A DNA stretch of 64,000 nt from a cyanobacterium endosymbiont of Epithemia clementina EcSB (GTDB lineage: Bacteria > Cyanobacteriota > Cyanobacteriia > Cyanobacteriales > Microcystaceae): assembly GCF_029919255.1 (NCBI RefSeq), contig NZ_CP123991.1, positions 1,109,110 to 1,173,109 of the forward strand, in the 5' to 3' direction. This document shows, one piece after another, positions 8,747-9,421 of this stretch. The position numbers and the translations under genes were made by a program. A model generated the notes under the pieces. It worked only from the letters and a program-made list of their open reading frames with translations, was not told where the DNA came from and did not search any database. Numbering within the stretch: the first letter of the stretch is position 1; each line of letters opens with the position of its first letter.

Positions 8747-9421
8747 ATAACCATTGCAGTCGGACGCGTCCCACAAAAAAAATAGTTTGAAAGTTTCTGT
8801 CTAGTCAACATTCATCCTTACAACTCTATTGCTTTCTCTGCCCCTATCACGGTATTCGTCAGTGTATTCTTGATGTATTTTTGGGACTGTTTAGCTGGTT
8901 CTTTGCCCTGATTTTTGGACTAGCTGGGATTCTCCGCTTTATTCTCTTCCTTCAAGGGTTCCACAACTGGACTCTCAATACCTTCCTTCCGCATGATAAG
9001 AGTCGTTGGGGTTTTCGGTGATGCGTTATTTTGTGCCATTCACTATGCAACTTTAGAAAACATCCTGTTTGAAAATATAAAACAAGCGAATTCTTCACTG
9101 TGTATTTGAACCGACCCAAACTGTGTATTTGAACCGACCCAATCGGGATTGCTTTCTCCAACAAGCGTTGGTTATACTTTTTCATGCGATTTATTCCTAT
9201 AACTGGACTCTGTATAATTTCTGTGGACATCGTAGGTTCAAAGCTGAACTTACGACTTATGACTTTATTTCTCAAAAATTGCGGGCAGCAAAAGATCCCT
9301 AGTTCGAGAAACTCTACACTAAGAACATTTTGTTAAATGAAAGTCTATGAGCTTGAATAGCTCCTCAAAACCAACCCTGCCAAAACTTTATATTCCCTGA
9401 AAAAGTCCTACTTATATTATG
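8747..9421 (+). pseudogene. psbD: Photosystem II D2 protein, deleted and frameshifted
   Basis: The start codon has become ATA at 8747, followed by TIAVGRVPQKK, the D2 N-terminus. Roughly 150 codons are then missing. The sequence resumes with [46 protein letters not shown] and, after a frameshift, [16 protein letters not shown] 23-bp tandem duplication (9097-9142) interrupts the region of the FNPTQ motif. After a further deletion of about 18 codons come [34 protein letters not shown] and IAPQNQPCQNFIFPEKVL. The residue order matches D2 to its last codons. In cyanobacteria psbC overlaps the psbD end, but no psbC trace follows here. Confidence 0.95.
9097..9142 (+). repeat. 23-bp exact tandem duplication inside the psbD fossil
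   Basis: Two identical 23-base units lie at 9097-9119 and 9120-9142, each containing TGTATTTGAACCGACCC. The unit encodes the VFEPTQ region of D2. Because 23 is not a multiple of three, the duplication itself shifts the frame. Confidence 0.95.

Follow-up and report, generated by a model that had tools for sequence, protein, structure and literature searches.

A lone psbD pseudogene in a spheroid body genome carries lesions common to the endosymbionts of Epithemia turgida and Rhopalodia gibberula

Positions 8747 to 9413 (+) of the window, by which we mean the whole 64,000-nucleotide stretch of DNA analyzed here, are very probably the pseudogene of a lone psbD copy in a nitrogen-fixing spheroid body endosymbiont of a rhopalodiacean diatom, with lesions common to the endosymbionts of Epithemia turgida and Rhopalodia gibberula. 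The window spans positions 1109110 to 1173109 of a genome that comprises 3,072,807 bases in one contig and has a completeness rating of 99.78%. It was compared with the genomes of the E. turgida endosymbiont (NZ_AP012549.1), the R. gibberula endosymbiont (NZ_AP018341.1), another reduced genome (G003), and a free-living relative (G006). Throughout, we use psbD1 for the copy in the psbDC operon and psbD2 for the lone copy, labels coined for this analysis. The relic is a genuine pseudogene, of a type already known, and is older than the initial annotation of this DNA had supposed.

The D2 protein of free-living G006, which is intact, matched the relic by tblastn in three overlapping pieces (E values of 6.7e-22, 5.0e-19, and 6.8e-19). 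The best score was 90.9 bits, compared to a top score of 23.9 bits among 1,000 first-order Markov shuffles of positions 8700 to 9450, and blastn with G006 psbD gave 70% identity over 660 columns. The reading as a psbD fossil, originally made from the letters alone, therefore holds. So do its coordinates (8747 to 9421, correct to within about ten bases, since homology stops near 9411 to 9413) and its two recognizable ends, TIAVGRVPQKK in the frame that begins at 8747 and QNFIFPEKVL at 9381 to 9410. What remains covers codons 1 to 14 and about 129 to 346 of a 352-codon gene. It cannot be read as D2: the former start codon at 8747 to 8749 (+) has changed from ATG to ATA, a loss that had been recognized from the outset, and the rest is interrupted by deletions of 345 and 52 nt, by frameshifts, and by stops in all three forward frames. 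The larger deletion had been put at about 150 codons, but joint alignment and ungapped scans give 345 nt, or 115 codons, in-frame, between GTTTGA repeats at reference nt 42 to 47 and 387 to 392. Among deletion sizes from 300 to 390, 345 fitted best (62 of 84 positions; runner-up, 53). At the junction (8783 to 8790, +), a TAG stop at 8783 to 8785 overlaps the sole remaining GTTTGA at 8785 to 8790. Slippage or recombination between the two repeats in a common ancestor could have produced this deletion. A second missing block had also been correctly noticed, although at 52 nt (reference nt 718 to 769; junction at 9142 to 9143, +, by ungapped comparison) it amounts to about 17 codons and not about 18. 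The 23-bp tandem duplication, in two copies within 9097 to 9143 (+), was placed at 9097 to 9142 by Tandem Repeats Finder and may alternatively be read as units 9098 to 9120 and 9121 to 9143. It does shift the frame by itself, as first described, but together with a +1 insertion just upstream (reference nt 695 in the alignment) the sum is +24. Judged by its sequence, then, the relic cannot make D2.

The upstream sequence identifies which psbD copy this is. Free-living G006 is probably Rippkaea orientalis PCC 8801; its chromosome has 4,679,413 bases, and 4.68 Mbp is published for that strain (PMC5638926). Intact psbD occurs twice in G006 and twice in its relative, G008. Because the sequence preceding the window relic matches that in front of the lone G006 psbD (L042; intact, 352 codons) and not that of the operon copy (L041), the window holds psbD2. 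The anchor for this orthology is an intact 85-amino-acid open reading frame at 8282 to 8539 (-), without a Pfam match, that is conserved upstream of the intact G006 psbD2. The two genomes thus have the same upstream reading frame at an orthologous site and differ in that the G006 gene is intact while the window copy is dead. Since psbD stands alone at the orthologous G006 locus, no psbC is expected beside the relic. Its absence downstream had been reported correctly, but it is not a product of decay, as psbD is lone in G006 and a psbD-psbC relic lies elsewhere in the window genome. A candidate psbC relic beside the window psbD was rejected, the only match being the natural psbC/psbD 3'-end overlap (22 residues; E = 0.053). 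Downstream, an intact hemC encoding porphobilinogen deaminase (10762 to 11724, +) provides a synteny anchor in G003 and in the endosymbionts of E. turgida and R. gibberula. The distance from hemC to psbD2 is about 45 kb in G006 and 2 kb in the window. Between relic and hemC lie about 1.3 kb of AT-rich sequence (9414 to 10760) without a reading frame of 100 amino acids, partly alignable to the E. turgida and R. gibberula endosymbionts.

Several of the lesions in the relic are not its own. In a joint alignment, all three psbD2 relics (those of the window and of the endosymbionts of E. turgida and R. gibberula) begin with ATA, lack the same 345 nt, and have stops at codons 310, 326, and 328. A pairwise run put the short 5' piece of psbD2 in the wrong place and did not recover the 345-nt deletion, which rests on the joint alignment together with ungapped scans over the same 300-to-390 range. 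These again gave 345 as the best size in the R. gibberula endosymbiont (63/84; next, 56) and, once an 8-nt gap peculiar to it is taken into account, in the E. turgida endosymbiont (56/79; next, 47). The 52-nt deletion is likewise present in all three; compared without gaps, 26 of 39 positions in the E. turgida relic and 31 of 39 in the R. gibberula relic agree with the window. The 23-bp duplication was seen in the window relic and in neither of the other two. As the start loss and both deletions are common to the two named endosymbionts, psbD2 was already dead in the common ancestor. The description of the gene as caught mid-decay is accordingly not the best reading. Since psbD2 is redundant in free-living relatives, however, its breakage does not by itself tell when photosystem II was lost.

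The initial annotation had made the loss of photosystem II depend on a genome-wide check for a second psbD. A second copy is present and is dead as well, and at the thresholds applied no intact psbA, psbB, psbC, or psbD was found. A profile search of the window genome with PF00124 (Photo_RC, covering psbA and psbD) gave six matches at E values of up to 1 and no intact gene: all six are partial, five with internal stops and one a 35-position piece. The PF00421 profile (psbB and psbC) gave one match, below the cutoff, and again no intact gene. As a positive control, both profiles match in Synechococcus elongatus, and full-length copies were recovered in G006. The photosystem II matches in the window genome come from three places: the relic in the window, a relic of psbA near 666 kb, and the psbD-psbC relic at G000:C1:3059248-3059887. 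The sequence around this last one matches the region of the psbDC operon in G006. For psbB, the window genome gave no match; psbB relics persist in the endosymbionts of E. turgida and R. gibberula. Searches of the window genome with PF00223 and PF01716 returned only partial or disrupted pieces, and its matches to psaA/psaB, psbO, and rbcL are partial, nearly all with internal stops. As far as these searches reach, photosystem II is lost. The plastid of the diatom host may have made the symbiont's photosystem II dispensable. In one relic of the window genome (G000:C1:2151964-2153483), pieces of psaA and psaB are fused by a large deletion. A psbO relic lies at G000:C1:658607-658952 (-), about 7 kb from the psbA relic, and the R. 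gibberula endosymbiont has a longer psbO relic at 651250 to 651804.

The timing of this loss is better addressed by the other photosystem II genes. With the psbA relic of each of the three endosymbionts aligned alone, stops at codons 131, 142, 241, 310, and 317 and a +1 insertion at 403 recur in all three. Random placement of stops gave means of 0.012 (psbA) and 0.001 (psbD2) common to all three, compared to the five and three observed, and in 20,000 draws at most 1 was shared by all three in either gene, in a control that ignores which codons mutate readily to stops. Coincident indels carry less weight: each pair shares two to three psbA indels, against random means of 0.06 to 0.13 and a maximum in 2,000 draws that was also two to three. 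In psbD1, the window genome and the R. gibberula endosymbiont share a -4 indel and stops at codons 58, 93, and 104, and the E. turgida and R. gibberula endosymbionts share a +2 indel; the window genome and the E. turgida endosymbiont, which keep different parts of the gene, have no psbD1 lesion in common. These coincidences amount to one indel a pair, against random means of 0.03 to 0.04 and a largest draw of 2. Because psbD1 lesions are common to two of the pairs, one of these pairs spans the root of the three, whatever their branching. The psbB gene could be compared between the E. turgida and R. gibberula endosymbionts only, which the tree groups together (the window genome has none), and there they share seven indels (largest random draw, 4) and six stops. 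In psaB, a -1 at 939, a -15 at 1486, and a stop at 1291 coincide between the window genome and the R. gibberula endosymbiont, which is suggestive only, gaps at alignment edges being forced. Overall, the psbA lesions, with psbD1 in support, probably date the loss of photosystem II for these three genomes, and not for G003.

Decay of rbcL followed another pattern. No common stop was called in any of the three pairs formed by the window genome and the E. turgida and R. gibberula endosymbionts, and the sole shared indel is an in-frame +3; the 5' half of rbcL in the R. gibberula endosymbiont aligns badly, so that a shared lesion could escape there. Two coincident rbcL stops, one in G003 and the window genome (codon 219) and one in G003 and the E. 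turgida endosymbiont (codon 67), were treated as chance, with 16 stops called in G003. A large gap that begins at nt 792 of the joint alignment in the window genome (88 nt) and G003 (95 nt) was taken as not shared; the lengths differ, and the E. turgida endosymbiont has no gap. The photosystem II genes thus probably broke once and early, and Rubisco later. We infer that the former would have broken before the three lineages split and the latter subsequently in each.

The window genome has the traits of a spheroid body: it is reduced (3.07 Mb), syntenic with the named spheroid bodies of E. turgida and R. gibberula across the first 16 to 18 kb of the window, and its photosystem genes are found only in partial or disrupted form. 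By this evidence it belongs with the nonphotosynthetic spheroid bodies of rhopalodiacean diatoms, and kinship would imply nitrogen fixation and life inside a diatom. Over three genes, it is 90.9% identical to the E. turgida endosymbiont, 91.9% to the R. gibberula endosymbiont, and 86.2% to G003, which is the least similar of the four reduced genomes (85.5 to 86.2% compared to 90.9 to 91.9%). A tree of the three genes groups the E. turgida and R. gibberula endosymbionts (support, 82) and places G003 beside the window genome (support, 36), so G003 is not shown as the outermost. With 2,483,960 bases, G003, the smallest of the four, is probably the marine Epithemia pelagica symbiont, whose genome is reported to be smaller than the rest of a set ranging from 2.5 to 3.1 Mb (PMC12903740).

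G003 retains a faint psbD2 relic between the same neighbors. At L046:12739-14185, hemC, the upstream sequence, and the relic stand in the order seen in the window, and a D2 search matched with an E value of 1.1e-4 and 29% identity. Across the deletion junction, ungapped comparison agrees with the window relic at 52 of 84 positions and with the R. gibberula endosymbiont at 51 of 84 (left side, 21/38 with either; right side, 31/46 and 30/46, respectively). A scan of deletion sizes from 300 to 390 again favored 345 (45/84; next, 40), with the exact breakpoint only bracketed. In 2,000 dinucleotide shuffles, the score of the window junction query was equalled once and those of the R. gibberula and E. 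turgida queries never, the alignments of the latter two containing small gaps and the E. turgida one covering mainly the right side. Scores for the whole stretch were 182 and 160.5; the 300 shuffles yielded no more than 66 and 57. At the place in G003 syntenic with psbA, no blastn match was found at an E value of 0.01; for psbDC, an intact query gave no match at the syntenic place at an E value of 1, and relic queries from the window genome and the R. gibberula endosymbiont matched 16 to 23 bases only. The case that G003 shares the 345-nt deletion is good but not conclusive.

The order of events could have been different. It is possible that psbD2 broke while the ancestor was free-living and still carried out photosynthesis, psbD1 making it redundant, and that photosystem II was lost afterwards. 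The paired intact copies in G006 and G008 suggest that one could probably be spared, and the large psbDC deletions differ among the window genome and the E. turgida and R. gibberula endosymbionts. In those three, however, the five psbA stops and the frameshift common to all, together with psbD1 lesions in two of three pairs, indicate that photosystem II was probably already dead in their ancestor. For G003, which lacks psbA or psbC matches at the thresholds used, a break in a free-living ancestor may be the explanation. Taken over all the genomes, we consider it unlikely, though a reading to be reckoned with. It is very improbable that each lineage acquired these lesions on its own. Slippage between direct repeats such as GTTTGA can recur at one site, rbcL did decay separately as far as its lesions can be called, and the random indel draws reached two to three coincidences at their extreme. 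But parallel decay would have to account for the coincidence of the psbD2 start loss, two deletions, and three stops with five psbA stops, a degree of sharing that random stops did not approach.

Retention of some function, as a small protein or antisense RNA, is extremely unlikely. A 107-amino-acid reading frame is open on the minus strand (8952 to 9275), but it has no Pfam match, the sole minus-strand reading frame of at least 30 amino acids at the same place in the E. turgida endosymbiont is 70 amino acids long, and the R. gibberula endosymbiont has lost 272 nt there; it was rejected as a gene. On selection, the codon positions give a mixed picture. Substitutions between the window and E. 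turgida relics fall evenly on the three codon positions (41/39/42, compared to 21/8/51 in hemC), as do those between the E. turgida and R. gibberula relics (21/22/25). Those between the window and R. gibberula relics are uneven (24/14/37), a point against the pseudogene reading. That faulty assembly or sequencing disguises an intact psbD is scarcely credible, with the same psbD2 lesions present in separately deposited genomes and psbA, psbC, the other psbD, psaA/psaB, psbO, and rbcL disrupted as well. An inherited pseudogene of psbD2 remains the best explanation of the relic.

That these endosymbionts have lost photosystem II is already known, an established case of reductive evolution. In the spheroid body of Rhopalodia gibba, psbC and psbD pseudogenes were reported in an operon-like arrangement, and PCR found no intact psbC (PMC2246100, 2008). 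Truncated or stop-ridden psbD and psbC sequences are common to that report and ours and are consistent with lost photosynthesis, but the R. gibba pair corresponds by its arrangement to the relic at 3059248 to 3059887, whereas the window holds a lone copy. The R. gibberula spheroid body is described as one in which no functional photosystem I or II genes were found, and that of E. turgida as lacking most photosystem genes, with rbcL pseudogenized (PMC5638926, 2017). Both resemble the window, in the present analysis, in that a psbD2 relic bearing the 345- and 52-nt deletions lies at the syntenic place. The main text of that study (PMC5638926) contains no word starting with "psb," and hence discusses no psbD lesions. 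Rhopalodian endosymbionts are also reported to lack 24 core-set photosystem II proteins (PMC12903740). In the portion of the open literature on these endosymbionts that was accessible, we found neither the lone psbD copy nor dating by shared lesions.

What is useful here is that one deletion junction can be traced through several endosymbiont genomes. Shared lesions in dead genes directly test single against multiple acquisition and also show in what sequence photosynthesis was taken apart. Both modes of acquisition are treated as open in a recent account, with the symbiont of marine E. pelagica as the doubtful case (PMC12903740, 2026). A 345-nt deletion present in all four genomes, if true, would mark one ancestor with a broken psbD2 and favor single acquisition. 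On balance, we lean towards this account, in which all four reduced genomes have the deletion from one ancestor acquired once, and photosystem II decayed first and Rubisco later and separately.

Two intact genes elsewhere in the window touch on the same physiology. The PUCC family is linked to light-harvesting pigment proteins, and an intact member is encoded at 52532 to 54010 (-), in a genome where searches for photosystem genes turned up relics or nothing. At 49265 to 50791 (+), the window also encodes an intact ChlB-like protein with nitrogenase-component-1 and PCP_red domains, a subunit of light-independent protochlorophyllide reductase; some of these endosymbionts are reported to keep part of chlorophyll synthesis (PMC5638926, PMC12903740).
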